Origin: an uncultured Chlorobiaceae bacterium
GTDB taxonomy: Bacteria > Bacteroidota > Chlorobiia > Chlorobiales > Chlorobiaceae
NCBI GenBank assembly: GCA_903939765.1
Contig: CAJAIK010000084.1
Span: 1-35,606 of the forward strand
DNA: 35,606 bases
Direction: 5' to 3'
Every line of letters starts with the position of its first letter. Position 1 is the stretch's first letter. A program made the translations under genes and the position numbers. Below the pieces are notes generated by a model that saw nothing but the letters and a program-made list of their open reading frames with translations, ran no database searches and was not told the origin of the DNA. This document shows positions 2,798 through 35,606 of the stretch, piece after piece.

Positions 2798-5614
2798 ATG
2801 AATAGCATGTGCAATACCGACAGAAAAACGAAGCGCGAAATGGGTAAAGAGCAATGCCAGAAAACTACGCCCGCATGGTTTGACTCTTTTCCTGAAATGG
2901 TCTTCGTCATGAACCGGGAGGGGGTAATTCTTGACGCCAACGAGGCCTTTGCTGCCCGGTTTGATAAAATACCGCAAGAGTGTGTTGGCGCCAATGTATA
3001 CAATCTTCTCCCATCTGAAATTTCATCTTACCGGCGGGAAAAGGCCGAAACGGTGTTTCACTCAAAAAGAGAGCTCTCCTGGGAGGATGAAAGGAACAAT
3101 CGGATTTTGCGCCATACTATCTATCCCACTCTCTCGAGGGACGCTGAGGTCACTCGACTTTTGATCATCTGTCAAGATGTGACTGATCTGAAGTTGAGTG
3201 AGCTGACACTGAAAAATGATTATGCCATCAGTAAAGCCATTATTGAATCTATTCCGGGAGCATTTTACATCCTTGATGCCAAAGGTCGATATGTCGGATG
3301 GAACAGCTATCAGCGTGACACCATTGTCGGAAAAAGTGAACACGAGATGGGCTGCTTTAAGGCAATTGAGACCATTCATCCGGATGATCGAGCGCTGATC
3401 TCAGAAAAAGTCCTGAACGCTTTTACTTTTGGCAATGAAGAGGTCGTTGAAACACGCGTTCTTCTTCGGGGAGGGCCTGAATTTCGCTGGTTCCTCATCA
3501 CCGGAAATCGGATCATAATCAATGGCACCCCATTCCTTATCGGGATGGGCATCGACATTACCAAGCGCAAACAGGACGAAGAGGCATTACAGCAAAACGA
3601 GGAGCGATTCAGGAAGCTCTTTGAAAGCCACTCCGCAATCCAGCTCATTTTTGATCCTGATACGGGCCATATTGTTAATGCCAATCAGGCCGCTGAGGAG
3701 TTTTATGGCTGGTCGGTTGAAGTACTCAAACAGATGCGCATTAATGAAATCAATACGATCCCTCCGGAAAAGGTAAAACAAATCCTGAGAAAATGGGTAT
3801 CATCACAACAACTCTCTTTTACCTTTCGTCACCGCAGAGCGGACAGTTCCATCCGTGATGTAGAGGTATTTGCCAATAAAGTTGACATCAATGGCAAAGC
3901 TCTTGTCTACTGCATTATCCATGACATCAATCAGCGGAAGCACCTTGAAAGGCTCTCTCTGTTTCGCATCCGCCTGTTCGAAATGGCCGCGACCCATTCG
4001 GTGGAAGCGTTACTGCAGGCTACCATCAACGAAGCTGAACAGTTGACAGGAAGCACCATCGGCTTCTGTAACCTTTTTGGCAATAACCACCTCCCCTCGA
4101 CAATACAAGTCATGTCAACCAACATGCAAAAAAGCTTGCTTGAGGCCGCAACTGGCGCACCACATCCATCGCTGAATGAAACCGGGTTATGGGGTGAAGC
4201 CATAGAAAAGAGGGATGCCATAATCAACAATAATTATAAAGCAATTGAGGATGGAAAAAAACCACCGAGTTTCCATTCTTTGATCATGCGGACACTGGTA
4301 GTTCCTCTTATGCAAGGTGAGACGGTTGTGGCAACTCTTGGGGTTGTAAACAAGCCCTCCAATTACGATGAGGATGATCGACATTGGGTAAAAATGGTTG
4401 CAGAGATTGCATGGGATATTATTGCCAAAAAGCTTGCCGATGAAGAACTCGAAAAACTGCAATCCCAGCTTCAGCACTTCCAGAAAATGGAGGTGGTAGG
4501 CCAGCTTGCTGGCGGTATTGCCCATGACTTCAACAACATGCTTGGGGTTATTATTGGATATACCGACATGTTAATGGAGGAATGTGATCCTGAACTGCCG
4601 ATCTATGACAGTCTGGAGATCATCCACAAAGCGGCCTCCCACTCTGCCGATCTGACCAGTCAGCTTCTCGCATTCGCCCGCAAGCAGACCGTACAGTCAA
4701 AGATTCTTCAAATAAACACCATTATCGAAGAGATGCTGCCGATGTTGAGGCGGTTAATCGGCGAAAAAATCACGCTGGTCTGGGTAGCCGAAACAAAGCT
4801 CATGCAGGTCAGGATTGATCCCTCGCAAATCAACCAGATTCTGGCCAACCTTTGTATTAATGCCCGTGACGCCATAACCGGCACCGGCTGCATCACCATT
4901 GAAACCAACATGGTACACATTGATACCATCAATGGTGCTTTCAGCCCGCATTGCCTCATGCCCGGTGACTATGCGGCACTTACCGTCAGCGACAATGGCT
5001 GCGGCATTACAAAAAAGGATCTGCCCCATATTTTTGAACCATTTTTTACCACCAAAGAGGTGGGGAAAGGTACCGGCATGGGACTTTCAACCGTCTATGG
5101 TATCGTGAAACAAAACAACGGCTCCCTCGAATGCGAAAGCAAATCGGGAGAAGGCAGCCTGTTCAGAATCTTGCTACCCCTTTTTAAAAAGTCTGCTGTT
5201 CAAACTGAACCTGGACTGCAGCAGACTGAAGCGGAGAAAAACACTGGCAGAGCAACAATACTGGTCGTCGAAGATGAACCCGATATTCTGAAACTCTGCC
5301 GATTTATACTTGAGAGCAGAGGATACCGTGTGCTCACTGCCCTGACAACCAGTGAAGCGCTCAACATTGCAATGGTGAACGATGGTCCGATAAACCTGCT
5401 CCTTACCGATGTGGTTATGCCCGAAATGAATGGCAATGAACTCTCAAAAAAGCTGCGAACAATACGTCCGAATCTCAAAACAATTTTTATGTCGGGTTAT
5501 ACAACAGAGATTATTTCTCATAATCAAATAGACGATGATGAGGCACACTTCATACAGAAGCCTTTTTCTGCAAAGACACTCATGAATGCGGTGTATGGGT
5601 TACTGAACCCTTAA
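2798..5614 (+). CDS. PAS-PAS-PAS-GAF hybrid sensor histidine kinase with receiver domain
   Basis: This is a 938-residue soluble signalling protein with no transmembrane segment. Three PAS domains occupy about residues 25-130, 145-260 and 270-385; the second and third end in PAC-like DITKRKQ and DINQRKH segments. A GAF domain spans about 393-545. The dimerisation/phosphoacceptor helix has GGIAHDFNN with His576. The ATPase domain shows NLCINARDAI (N box), DNGCGI (G1), FEPFFTTK (F box) and GTGMGLS (G2). The C-terminal receiver (about 819-938) has EDEP, phosphoacceptor Asp871 in LLLTDVVMP, and Lys921. It probably senses a cytosolic small-molecule or redox cue and phosphorylates its own receiver. 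No output-domain gene is adjacent. The ATG at 2798 has only a weak Shine-Dalgarno; Met15 is an alternative. Confidence 0.88.
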   Translation: MNSMCNTDRKTKREMGKEQCQKTTPAWFDSFPEMVFVMNREGVILDANEAFAARFDKIPQECVGANVYNLLPSEISSYRREKAETVFHSKRELSWEDERNNRILRHTIYPTLSRDAEVTRLLIICQDVTDLKLSELTLKNDYAISKAIIESIPGAFYILDAKGRYVGWNSYQRDTIVGKSEHEMGCFKAIETIHPDDRALISEKVLNAFTFGNEEVVETRVLLRGGPEFRWFLITGNRIIINGTPFLIGMGIDITKRKQDEEALQQNEERFRKLFESHSAIQLIFDPDTGHIVNANQAAEEFYGWSVEVLKQMRINEINTIPPEKVKQILRKWVSSQQLSFTFRHRRADSSIRDVEVFANKVDINGKALVYCIIHDINQRKHLERLSLFRIRLFEMAATHSVEALLQATINEAEQLTGSTIGFCNLFGNNHLPSTIQVMSTNMQKSLLEAATGAPHPSLNETGLWGEAIEKRDAIINNNYKAIEDGKKPPSFHSLIMRTLVVPLMQGETVVATLGVVNKPSNYDEDDRHWVKMVAEIAWDIIAKKLADEELEKLQSQLQHFQKMEVVGQLAGGIAHDFNNMLGVIIGYTDMLMEECDPELPIYDSLEIIHKAASHSADLTSQLLAFARKQTVQSKILQINTIIEEMLPMLRRLIGEKITLVWVAETKLMQVRIDPSQINQILANLCINARDAITGTGCITIETNMVHIDTINGAFSPHCLMPGDYAALTVSDNGCGITKKDLPHIFEPFFTTKEVGKGTGMGLSTVYGIVKQNNGSLECESKSGEGSLFRILLPLFKKSAVQTEPGLQQTEAEKNTGRATILVVEDEPDILKLCRFILESRGYRVLTALTTSEALNIAMVNDGPINLLLTDVVMPEMNGNELSKKLRTIRPNLKTIFMSGYTTEIISHNQIDDDEAHFIQKPFSAKTLMNAVYGLLNP

Positions 5615-10435: not shown

Positions 10436-11515
10436 ATGGCCGATGATTCATTTCTTCAGTTTTACCTGTTATTTTCCAAGCTGTCAGCATTTCTCAAACC
10501 AAAGTCTGTACGTGTGAGTGATTTTCATCCCATCAAAAGCTCAAAGCCTCATCAGCAGGATCATGGAGAGTTCACGACACCCTTGAGTGTCCGGAAACTG
10601 GTTCATGGCCGGCCTATGCCGGTTGAGAACATCTCCAAACTTGCGCTGATCATCCGCTTCCTTAAACCGGTCACCTGGATTCCGGTGATGTGGAGCTTTA
10701 TCTGCGGAGCGGTGGCAAGCGGCAGTTTTGGATGGAGGGAGGTTGCTGGCATGAAATTTTTTCTCGCCATGCTGCTGACCGGCCCCCTGGCAAGTGGAAC
10801 CTGCCAGATGCTCAACGACTATTTTGACCGGGATCTCGATGAAATCAACGAACCGAACCGCCCCATTCCCGGCGGAGCCATCTCGCTCAAAAATGCCACC
10901 ATCCTGATTGCTCTCTGGTCGATTCTTTCCGTTATCACCGGCTATCTGATTCATCCGCTTATCGGCTTTTACGTTGTCATCGGCATTGTCAATGCGCACC
11001 TCTACAGCGCAAACCCCATCAAACTCAAAAAAAGGCTCTGGGCGGGCAATATCATTGTTGCCGTCTCCTACCTCATCATACCGTGGATAGCCGGAGAGAT
11101 TGCCTATCATCCCGCCTTTACCCTCTCATCGCTTCAGCCTTCGCTGATTGTCGCCGCGCTTTTCACCCTCTCCAGCACCGGCACCATGACCATCAACGAC
11201 TTCAAATCAATCGAAGGTGACCGGCAAGTCGGCATCAGAACCCTTCCTGTTGCCTTCGGGGAAACCAAAGCCGCACTGCTTGCCGCCGTGCTCATCAATC
11301 TTGGTCAGCTCCTTGCATCAAGCTACCTCTTCATAATCGGCCAGAGCACGTATGGCATCATTGTCGGTGCCCTCGTCATTCCGCAATTTTTTCTGCAGTT
11401 TGCCCTGGTGAAATCACCAGCAACGATGGACGTCCGCTATAACGCCATTGCGCAAAACTTTCTGGTTGCTGGAATGCTGGTCTGCGCCTTTGCCATCAGA
11501 GCCGCAAGGCCATGA
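10436..11515 (+). CDS. bchG: (Bacterio)chlorophyll synthase, UbiA prenyltransferase family
   Basis: This integral-membrane prenyltransferase esterifies (bacterio)chlorophyllide with geranylgeranyl/phytyl (or farnesyl) diphosphate. The first Asp-rich motif NDYFDRDLDEINEPNRPIPGG is diagnostic of the ChlG/BchG branch. The second, NDFKSIEGDRQVG, and the N-terminal KPVTWIPVMWSFICGA agree with that. About eight hydrophobic helices follow a soluble N-terminal extension of some 70 residues that is longer than typical. Green sulfur bacteria carry three paralogues (BchG for BChl a, BchK for BChl c/d/e, ChlG for Chl a). Sequence inspection alone does not say which this is, so the symbol is provisional. 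It strongly supports a phototrophic Chlorobi host. Confidence 0.85.
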   Translation: MADDSFLQFYLLFSKLSAFLKPKSVRVSDFHPIKSSKPHQQDHGEFTTPLSVRKLVHGRPMPVENISKLALIIRFLKPVTWIPVMWSFICGAVASGSFGWREVAGMKFFLAMLLTGPLASGTCQMLNDYFDRDLDEINEPNRPIPGGAISLKNATILIALWSILSVITGYLIHPLIGFYVVIGIVNAHLYSANPIKLKKRLWAGNIIVAVSYLIIPWIAGEIAYHPAFTLSSLQPSLIVAALFTLSSTGTMTINDFKSIEGDRQVGIRTLPVAFGETKAALLAAVLINLGQLLASSYLFIIGQSTYGIIVGALVIPQFFLQFALVKSPATMDVRYNAIAQNFLVAGMLVCAFAIRAARP

Positions 11516-15012: not shown

Positions 15013-15765
15013 TCAGTAAACTTGCCGGATTATGTAGAGGATGGTGCCGAGAATTTTGACGTCGTCGGTTTCTTTGAGTAGCAAGGAGTCGTAATGGCTG
15101 TTTTCGGGTGAGAGGATGACGGCTCCTTTTTGAATGAGGATGCGTTTTACTGTTTGGGCTCCGTTGATGCTTGCTATGACGATGCAGCGGTGTTTTACGG
15201 GTGCTTTGTTGTCTGCTATGAGGATGTCTCCGGTTTCGATCCCTGCCCCTATCATACTGTCGCCGTTTGCGCGTACTGCCCAGGTGCTTTCGGGGTGGCG
15301 CGTGATCTCTTTGGGGACGGTAATGTATTTTTCGATGTCAGACGTTGCGCTACACGGGTCGCCAGCGGCTACGGCGTGCATAAACAGCGGTATCTGAATG
15401 GTTTCGCTACCTTTCTCCCTTTTCTTTGCGTCTATTTCAAGGGTTTCAACCCGCTTTAAAACGTCGTTTAAACGGTCGTTTTGTGGCTGTTGAACGGGCG
15501 TTTCGTCCTGCTTTTTATCGTTTTCCTCTTCTTTACCACCATCCTGCGTTGCATACATCTCCCCTTCGCCGCTTTTTGCCCATTCAGGGTTTAAGCCGTA
15601 GCAAATCAAATTGATTATAACTCTACTTGGGTCTGATTTCCCGGTCAAATACCTGTTTATGTTTTGCTGATGAATGCCTAAAACATTTGCAAGATAGGTT
15701 TTACTCCATCCTTTGGAATCAGCAAAAGCCTTGATCCTTGCCCCTATTTCAGCGTTTTCAGTCAA
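15013..15765 (-). CDS. Prophage repressor: HTH plus LexA/S24-type autoprotease
   Basis: In this 250-residue protein, residues 5-66 form an HTH_3/CI-type DNA-binding domain (SKTYLANVLGIHQQNINRYLTGK). Residues 70-120 are a charged linker. Residues 124-250 are a peptidase S24 domain with a cleavable Ala134-Gly135, nucleophile Ser170 in GDSM and general-base Lys207. The Ser-Lys spacing of 37 equals that in LexA. It should hold lysogeny and be inactivated through RecA-stimulated self-cleavage. That differs from Mu itself, whose repressor is ClpXP-regulated. The start is TTG (15763-15765), with AGGGTG 6 nt upstream. It sits at the left end on the minus strand, opposite to A and B. Confidence 0.88.
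   Translation of the reverse strand: MTENAEIGARIKAFADSKGWSKTYLANVLGIHQQNINRYLTGKSDPSRVIINLICYGLNPEWAKSGEGEMYATQDGGKEEENDKKQDETPVQQPQNDRLNDVLKRVETLEIDAKKREKGSETIQIPLFMHAVAAGDPCSATSDIEKYITVPKEITRHPESTWAVRANGDSMIGAGIETGDILIADNKAPVKHRCIVIASINGAQTVKRILIQKGAVILSPENSHYDSLLLKETDDVKILGTILYIIRQVY
15601..15618. promoter_or_regulatory. Operator-like palindrome inside the repressor gene
   Basis: AATCAA-A-TTGATT (centre 15610) is a perfect 6-bp inverted repeat with a 1-nt centre, inside the 5' part of the repressor coding sequence. It matches the promoter-proximal operators. It lies 189 bp from the next site, compatible with DNA looping or autoregulation. Confidence 0.5.
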
Positions 15766-33845: not shown

Positions 33846-34172
33846 ATGGTTATTGAAAACTTGTTTGTTGGGCTTGTGCTTGCGGCTGGTGTGACGTCTG
33901 CGGGTAAACTGGTGGACCTTGGCGCTCTTGGTGCATCGGGTGATTTTGGCCTGCAGGTGGATTGTGCGGCGGCGGTGACGGTGACGTATAAGGCTGCGGC
34001 ATCGGGTGCTGTGCCGGCTGCGGTGTCGGGCGATAATATTTTGGCAGCTCATGACGGGTCTGGCAGCAAGATGTATTGGCCGGCGATACCGCCATATGCC
34101 AAGATTTGGGTTTATGCGACAGCTCCCGCTGCAAGCGGGGCGACGGTGACGGCAACTTTAAATGTGTGGTAA
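33846..34172 (+). CDS. Small beta-rich phage protein, unknown
   Basis: This 108-residue, Gly/Ala/Val/Thr-rich protein is apparently all-beta: GVTSAGKLVDLGALGASGDFGLQVDCAAAVTVTYKAA and KIWVYATAPAASGATVTATLNVW. Such sequences are common for capsid-decoration or fibre-associated domains. It starts 2 bp after the lipoprotein stop and immediately precedes the DGR target gene, so it may be a chaperone or partner of that adhesin. No family assigned. Confidence 0.6.
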   Translation: MVIENLFVGLVLAAGVTSAGKLVDLGALGASGDFGLQVDCAAAVTVTYKAAASGAVPAAVSGDNILAAHDGSGSKMYWPAIPPYAKIWVYATAPAASGATVTATLNVW

Positions 34173-34197
34173 TATGGGGTGGCCGGACAGAAAACTA

Positions 34198-35448
34198 ATG
34201 ATCGATTTAGCAGGACTTACTGCAAGGATATCTGCGATTGAAGGGTCAATCCAGTCGCAAGACTATTTTGGATTTGCTTATAACACGTATTCCGATACGT
34301 TCACACGTCTTGGTAAAGCCCAGGGTATTCCAAATGGAGTTTTCTGCGGTCGATGGGTCTCTCCGATTATCGCTAGTCTGCGGATGGTCAGTTTGCAGGA
34401 TAATGGCACGGTGACAAAAGAAATCAGTTGGCTGGACAAGACGAAATATACCGACGGGACAAGTGTTCCGCTCGGCGGTTCCGACGGGCAGATTATGGTC
34501 GAGTATCTGCCGGCGTATATGAAAATGGGTACGTGGGGTAACTGGTATTATGTGATGCTTAGCCACTTACCTCTTGCTGGATTTACGTTGCACCCGCTTT
34601 TTACTGGTATGTCCGCAGTCTATCAGGCCACATTCGAAGCGTCGGTGTATAACAGTGGTGCTGGAAATAGGCTTTACAGCGTCGCAAAAAGCCCCGCTGA
34701 TGGCCTTGCTGATGTATATCCGGTCACTGAGCGATCGGGTGCGTGGGGTCTGACCGGCACTAACGCTACTCAGATGGATGCGCTTGCTGCTGCCCGTGGA
34801 TCTGGATGGCAAATGCAGGATTTCCTGACAGTACAATATCAGAGGATTTTGTTGCTGTCAATTTTTGCAAGCTACGACATACCGGCTATTGTTGGCGCCG
34901 GACGTATCAATCTATCCGGAGGGACATGGATAAACGGCAGTTATATCGGTAAGTGCGGCTTAGGCCTTGCTGCTTATGACTACTACGGAGCAGTGCAAGT
35001 CGGGACGACCGGAGGTTATGCGACAGATTATTCTTTCGTGCTCGGCGTCGAAAATCCATGGGGGAACGTGTCGGAAAGAGTCACTGCTCTCGTTAGTGAT
35101 CACGACTTTTACTATAAGCCTCAACCGCCGTACGATTATACAAATGTCTCGGGATGGACCAGGCTGCAGACGGTATTAGGGGTAAATATCACTCTCCCTG
35201 CTACTGACGGGTACGGTGGGATCCCATTTTCTGGGTTGGGTATTGTGTTGCCGTCTAATGTTGCGGGCAGCAGCTCAACGAAAATGAGGGATTATTACTA
35301 TCAGGATGCAGGCCTGCGGGTGTTGTTGGTGGGCGGTGCTTCGGCTGACGGAGCGACTGCGGGGCCGTTTTGCTGGTATGCGTATCGCGCGGCTTCGTAT
35401 ACGAGTACGACTTTCGGCGGGCGTCTCTGCTTCAAAAAAGCTGCGTAG
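34198..35448 (+). CDS. DGR target protein: putative phage adhesin with C-type-lectin-like variable C-terminus
   Basis: This protein of about 416 residues starts at ATG 34198 (alternatives 34162 or 34174). A short N-terminal coiled coil (MIDLAGLTARISAIEGSI) could trimerise it. The domain RLGKAQGIPNG...DGTSVPLGGSDGQIMVEYLPAYMK resembles adhesin or tail-fibre modules that precede C-type-lectin folds in Bacteroidetes phages. The C-terminus (DAGLRVLLVGGASADGATAGPFCWYAYRAASYTS...GGRLCF) has the DGR variable-region signature: conserved G/F/W scaffold residues, variable surface residues, and closing GGRLCF. It would bind host receptors at the virion surface. The gene sits straight after the lysis cluster, ahead of where tail genes would be. 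Confidence 0.75.
   Translation: MIDLAGLTARISAIEGSIQSQDYFGFAYNTYSDTFTRLGKAQGIPNGVFCGRWVSPIIASLRMVSLQDNGTVTKEISWLDKTKYTDGTSVPLGGSDGQIMVEYLPAYMKMGTWGNWYYVMLSHLPLAGFTLHPLFTGMSAVYQATFEASVYNSGAGNRLYSVAKSPADGLADVYPVTERSGAWGLTGTNATQMDALAAARGSGWQMQDFLTVQYQRILLLSIFASYDIPAIVGAGRINLSGGTWINGSYIGKCGLGLAAYDYYGAVQVGTTGGYATDYSFVLGVENPWGNVSERVTALVSDHDFYYKPQPPYDYTNVSGWTRLQTVLGVNITLPATDGYGGIPFSGLGIVLPSNVAGSSSTKMRDYYYQDAGLRVLLVGGASADGATAGPFCWYAYRAASYTSTTFGGRLCFKKAA
35312..35448 (+). repeat. DGR variable region (VR)
   Basis: This is the 3' segment of the target gene, from the point where homology to the downstream copy begins to the stop codon. In 35312-35351 it differs from 35507-35546 at seven positions. All seven are A in the downstream copy (six of them changed pairwise or singly to G or C), and no other base differs. 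Codons GCT, TCG, GCT, GAC in VR correspond to AAT, TCG, AAT, AAC downstream, the AAY pattern typical of templates. Confidence 0.75.
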
Positions 35449-35453
35449 CAGCT
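35439..35453 (+). other. Perfect inverted repeat at the end of VR, DGR-type hairpin/cruciform
   Basis: AGCTGC-GTA-GCAGCT has a 6-bp stem and 3-nt loop containing the start of the TAG stop codon. DGR targets characteristically carry a small GC-rich hairpin just downstream of VR that promotes retrohoming. A T9 tract at 35469-35477 follows, so a terminator role is an alternative. Confidence 0.55.
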
Positions 35454-35506
35454 CGGAGTGCGCCGTGATTTTTTTTTGTTCTTTGGGATAAAAGGGACTG
35501 TGGTAT

Positions 35507-35606
35507 GCCTGCAGGTGTTGTTGGTAGGCGGTAATTCGAATAACGGTTGGTTTGTCTGGGCAAACACCTACAATCTGAGGAAAAAATATGATTGGAAATA
35601 GTGCGA
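35507..35606 (+). repeat. Template-repeat-like copy of VR (cut by window edge)
   Basis: The first 40 nt (35507-35546) are 33/40 identical to VR, and all seven mismatches lie at adenines here. After that the nucleotide match breaks, but the reading GG-NSNNG-WFVW still aligns with GG-ASADG...PFCW of the target if a 12-nt gap is allowed. It is adenine-rich. It has no ribosome-binding site and no start for the homologous frame, so it is a non-coding template or remnant. It continues to the right edge. Confidence 0.65.

Follow-up and report, generated by a model that had tools for sequence, protein, structure and literature searches.

Most diversity-generating retroelements (DGRs), though not all, include an accessory gene of the bAvd, HRDC or MSL type. 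In these elements the reverse transcriptase (RT) copies the RNA of a template repeat (TR) with errors at adenines, and the cDNA, which starts at the spacer/IMH*, replaces a variable region (VR) located beside an IMH and a hairpin (PMC12875486). Several described systems resemble the locus reported here, which lies in a Mu-like prophage of an uncultured Chlorobiaceae bacterium. The Bacteroides hankyphage is likewise a Mu-like transposable phage with adenine-specific TR/VR mismatches and a tail protein as target, but differs in having an Avd-type small ORF and in that its DGR is intact and experimentally active (PMC6199706, PMC12135933); it is absent from the nine phage records matched by our target protein. 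Bordetella BPP-1 (mtd-avd-TR-brt) shares with the Chlorobium phages the VR at the 3′ end of the target gene, a hairpin just after the IMH, and the TR located before the RT, but its avd gene is between VR and TR, where no bAvd-like gene was found in the Chlorobium phages. The archaeal virus ANMV-1 (KP703175, PMC4372165) differs in host and in having a complete cassette, but its RT is 37% identical to that of our closest relative (L016, see below), and the 'hypothetical protein' ORF directly after the ANMV-1 RT is 37.5% identical to a small OB-like protein of that relative. The inactivated DGRs reported in DiGReF also have an inactivated RT and VR/TR pairs with changes at A only; however, they carry stop codons, frameshifts or insertions with TR and VR intact, whereas here a single deletion appears to have taken most of both the TR and the RT (PMC3521204). 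The literature searched contains no description of a Mu-like Chlorobium DGR phage. The phages described below add a family of DGR-bearing Mu-like phages from green sulfur bacteria, with no close relative among the phage records searched.

Prophage, target gene and repeat pair

The window, by which we mean the whole stretch of 35,606 nucleotides that was analysed, takes up the whole of contig C84 in an assembly of 128 contigs and 2.98 Mb, which contains nothing beyond position 35606. A prophage extends from its repressor at 15013 to the contig end at 35606, and is incomplete, without tail genes. A family search of the window identified a Peptidase_S24 repressor, Mu-transpos_C, MuB-like AAA, GemA, Phage_tail_S, Portal_Mu, Terminase_6N and lysozyme; the combination of a Mu transposase with Mu-type head genes (Mu-transpos_C together with GemA, Portal_Mu and Phage_tail_S) bears out the initial annotation of this region as belonging to a Mu-like prophage in a green sulfur bacterium. 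The same annotation had placed the retroelement at the right edge of the prophage, which is not correct: in L016 the cassette is upstream of the tail tube gene, other tail genes and what is probably the tape measure gene, so the cassette lies inside the phage and the supposed edge is the end of the contig. The OB-like gene and the tape measure gene of L016 were sought in the other contigs of the assembly as a continuation of the prophage and neither was found; the absence of these downstream phage genes shows that sequence from this part of the prophage was indeed lost in assembly or binning.

The DGR target gene (34162–35448, forward strand) is an intact ORF encoding 428 amino acids, with the C-terminal pattern LRVLLVGGxSxxGxxAGPFxW..GGRLCF. 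The protein matches PHROG 5302 'tail protein' (E = 1e-39) and has no match in Pfam or NCBIfam; it is probably a phage tail or host-binding protein, in agreement with what had been claimed for it. We do not claim a C-type-lectin fold for it: the AlphaFold model is poor (pLDDT 44, from a shallow alignment), and comparison of the C-terminal ~110 columns with AdtA of ANMV-1, reported to be Mtd-like, gives an hhalign E value of 5e-4 with a probability of only 33%. Directly before the target gene is a 108-aa ORF (33846–34172) that is kept in L016 (7676–8002) and has no family match.

The two copies that first drew attention to this region were found as reported, at 35312–35351 and 35507–35546, with 33 of 40 nucleotides identical and all seven differences (five A>G and two A>C) at A residues of the downstream copy. 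That copy contains eight A residues, and at the other 32 positions the two copies do not differ. Such a placement of mismatches has a hypergeometric p of 4.3e-7, and in five Markov-1 resamples of the window the best 40-nt match within 1 kb reached no more than 25–27 identities; a chance repeat was rejected on these two grounds. The upstream copy is the start of a VR at 35312–35437 (forward strand), which makes up the final ~126 nt of the target gene and aligns without gaps to the full 126-nt TR of L016. Among the 27 mismatches in this completed alignment 20 are at A residues of the TR (p = 2e-9).

The GC-rich 3′ end of the VR (35416–35433, forward strand) is a putative IMH by its position, and the 3′ ends of VR and TR are conserved in L016. 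Just 3′ of the VR is a stem-loop with a 6-bp stem, AGCTGC-GTA-GCAGCT (35439–35453, forward strand), in agreement with the hairpin at the recipient site of BPP-1 (PMC12875486). The stem is kept in relatives with both arms changed (GGCCGC/GCGGCC, GGCTGC/GCAGCC and GGGCGC/GCGCCC), the sole exception among those tested being L033, in which it was not found; it was also sought 3′ of the TR in three loci and is absent in all three. As judged from its sequence, the recipient side, consisting of VR, putative IMH and covarying stem-loop, is intact.

Intact relatives and the remnant of the donor side

A search with the target protein identified as the closest relative a Mu-like phage in a Chlorobiaceae MAG, Oct13_Bin_1 (JABDHL010000010; L016), together with IMGVR_UViG_3300032722_000079 (L015), which is identical to L016 across the stretch fetched. 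Both resemble the window in the target protein (83% identity), in the gene order of the cassette, in the first 40 nt of the TR (39/40 identical) and in the stem-loop, but contain a complete 126-nt TR and a complete RT of 317 amino acids where the window is missing about 1,078 bp. The order in the intact relatives is the target gene with its VR and stem-loop, the TR, the RT, a 101-aa ORF, an OB-like ORF and then tail genes. The L016 TR and VR differ at 23 positions, 20 of them at A (p = 8e-12). The same order is present in L030, L031, L032, L033, L036 and L067, in each of which 12 to 24 TR/VR mismatches are confined, or almost confined, to A (12/12 in L030, 19/19 in L031, 18/18 in L032 and 24/24 in L067). 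The 101-aa ORF (L016:10491–10793) overlaps the stop codon of the RT gene in these relatives and has no match in Pfam or PHROG.

Within the window, the donor side is represented by the first 40 of ~126 TR nucleotides (35507–35546, forward strand) and by the 3′ end of the RT gene (35540–35601, forward strand; last codons NGWFVWANTYNLRKKYDWK, stop TAG), the latter identified by both tblastn and nucleotide matches. These are joined across a shared 7-mer, ATAACGG (35540–35546, forward strand), such that TR nucleotide 40 is followed by the last 19 codons of the RT. The repeat match noted initially stops after 40 nt because the following 60 nt are the end of the RT gene and cannot be aligned to the VR; the caution that the template might be truncated was therefore well placed. 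The first six codons of the 101-aa ORF (MIGNSA) also remain, overlapping the RT stop at 35588–35606 (forward strand) in the same register as in L016 (MVGYSA, at 10491). When the L016 RT was used as a tblastn query against the window's own genome, the cognate match was confined to residues 298–316, in the window (79% identity, E = 2e-4), and the window RT tail has an 81–82% nucleotide match to the RT ends of L030, L031, L032 and L067.

The fused arrangement is reflected in the last 164 nt of the window, which match two separate places, TR and RT gene end, in L030, L067, L031 and L032, except that in L032 the first piece is the flank before the TR instead of the TR. In L030 and L067 the matched pieces are ~1.07 kb apart and overlap by exactly 7 nt, the ATAACGG sequence; the pieces are shorter in L031 and L032. 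ATAACGG is present in both the TR and the RT tail of the intact loci L016, L030, L031, L033 and L067, and joining the two copies there would remove 1068–1082 bp. The segment of about 1,078 bp that is absent relative to L016 corresponds to TR nucleotides 41–126 with the IMH*, the TR-RT spacer and ~94% of the RT. An RT with the (I/V/L)GxxxSQ motif near the TR is thus found in the relatives (PIGNYSSQ in L016), and not in the window.

The genome contains no second TR of this type. Its other RTs were considered as the cognate enzyme and rejected, being at most 39% identical to the L016 RT and situated at other loci. Since the RT is reduced here to its last 19 codons and the rest of the genome has no cognate enzyme, the window contains a DGR remnant and no complete DGR. 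The fused TR-RT arrangement was sought in 86 genomes of the family and was seen in this genome only, the others having intact arrangements; neither the junction 21-mer nor the exact RT tail was found in IMG/VR.

History and present state of the cassette

That the repeats are the TR and VR of a DGR, as initially proposed, is supported by the restriction of mismatches to A and by the full TR/VR pairs and RT genes at the homologous site in relatives. The alternative is a chance partial repeat or an ordinary paralogous duplication of a gene end, with no DGR involved; the match inside the window is indeed just 40 nt long, but a run of mismatches at A alone and complete cassettes at the same place in close relatives refute this reading, and we regard it as exceedingly improbable. 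The further proposal, that the prophage diversifies its host-binding protein, is not supported for the copy in the window, in which the donor side is missing apart from 40 of ~126 TR nucleotides and the last 19 RT codons. Before this loss the phage RT, by analogy with the DGR family, would have introduced errors at A while copying the TR RNA, with the resulting cDNA taking the place of the VR. A deletion of ~1.08 kb between the two ATAACGG copies would then have joined TR nucleotide 40 to the last 19 RT codons, taking with it the 3′ part of the TR with its IMH*, the spacer on which priming depends, and the catalytic core of the RT; the VR would have been diversified prior to the loss and would now be fixed in cis. 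With IMH*, spacer and RT gone, the cassette is predicted to be unable to diversify the VR in cis at present, and the VR is probably frozen, barring action in trans by a related phage. Because none of the 32 non-A positions differs between VR and the TR remnant, any inactivation would be recent, an argument made before for other inactivated DGRs (PMC3521204).

We think it probable that the window contains the DGR of a Mu-like Chlorobium phage from which the donor half has been lost. It could instead be that the prophage DGR is ordinary and intact, that a chimeric read or an assembly artefact produced the TR-RT fusion, and that the RT and tail genes were lost in assembly or binning. The junction was seen once, only 60 nt short of the contig end, in an apparent metagenome assembly from which the downstream phage genes are missing; all of the intact relatives found have the full cassette, and 7-nt microhomologies are also used by chimeric library molecules. 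However, no contig of the assembly carries the RT body, and the extent of the contig argues for a real junction. Contig ends in this assembly overlap by up to 141 nt, several of them by exactly 140–141 (many small contigs read as N), and these overlaps indicate a de Bruijn assembly with k = 141. Given an intact path, a k = 141 contig should break at 35546 and not run 60 nt past the junction; since the contig ends at 35606, neither at the branch expected at ~35546 nor at the merge expected at ~35680, the graph would have contained no intact allele. We consider a real deletion to be considerably more probable than an artefact, and the artefact to be unlikely, although it has to be taken seriously.

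The loss of the donor half would still permit diversification of the VR as an acceptor, either through a co-resident or superinfecting phage or through one of the host's three other DGRs. The VR, IMH and stem-loop are retained, so a related phage with a complete cassette could perhaps provide the TR RNA and RT for rewriting the VR, and the host genome does encode three further DGR-type RTs. However, these host RTs are just 34–39% identical to the L016 RT, two of them have TR/VR pairs of their own, the genome has no second matching TR, and there is no sign of selection for the deleted state; we consider such continuing diversification very improbable. If the donor-deleted prophage is as we propose, the sequence mark of a DGR need not denote a working diversifier: this copy has shed its template and enzyme but kept the hypermutated gene and the landing site. 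Lysogens of this kind would be natural tests of whether a related phage can rewrite a VR in trans, and of the time for which a frozen receptor-binding variant endures.

An OB-like protein beside the RT and other retroelements

The initial annotation suggested looking for an Avd gene beyond the repeats. Two ORFs follow the RT in relatives, and the window contig ends after the first six codons of the first; neither of these ORFs has a Pfam match. No bAvd-like gene was found by Pfam among the ORFs beside the RT in the intact relatives, although the bAvd model (PF22296) does match contig C97 of the window's own genome (E = 5e-19). The second of the two ORFs encodes a ~97-aa OB-like protein (L016:10793–11083; also present in L030–L036, L039, L041, L043, L067, L068 and L150–L229) without a Pfam or PHROG match. 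An RT is near this gene in 77 of the 80 viral loci encoding it, and in L043 the gene is located between VR and TR. AlphaFold predicts a small beta barrel plus a helix (pLDDT 89). The top structure matches are all weak (none below E = 0.03) and include OB-type domains (RuvBL domain II, HIN and RPA).

It is possible that the OB-like protein is an alternative to Avd. We tentatively suggest, as an idea that is somewhat more doubtful than not, a phage DGR lineage without Avd in which this ~97-aa protein is used instead, perhaps for holding the cDNA or template RNA, with the prophage in the window as a donor-deleted but acceptor-competent member. A DGR survey mentions an unnamed DGR-associated protein without a Pfam entry (PMC10053308), which may be the same as the OB-like protein, whose novelty is thus uncertain. 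These loci direct attention to a conserved RT-linked protein other than Avd.

The genome carrying the window has other retroelements. Contig C97 (5310 bp) has identical first and last 141 nt, and is thus circular or tandem in the assembly; it encodes a 992-aa protein with NACHT-like and FGE-sulfatase-like parts, a DGR-type RT and, across its ends, a bAvd-like ORF, with a probable TR near 4900 and VR near 460 (by eye only). Contigs C87 and C16 contain two more chromosomal DGRs, with FGE-sulfatase-like targets; the DGR of C87 has one TR and two VRs, with 15/15 and 16/16 mismatches at template A. Contig C81 encodes an RT of 310 amino acids that does not look like a DGR enzyme and is retron-like by eye, beside a 306-aa ORF.
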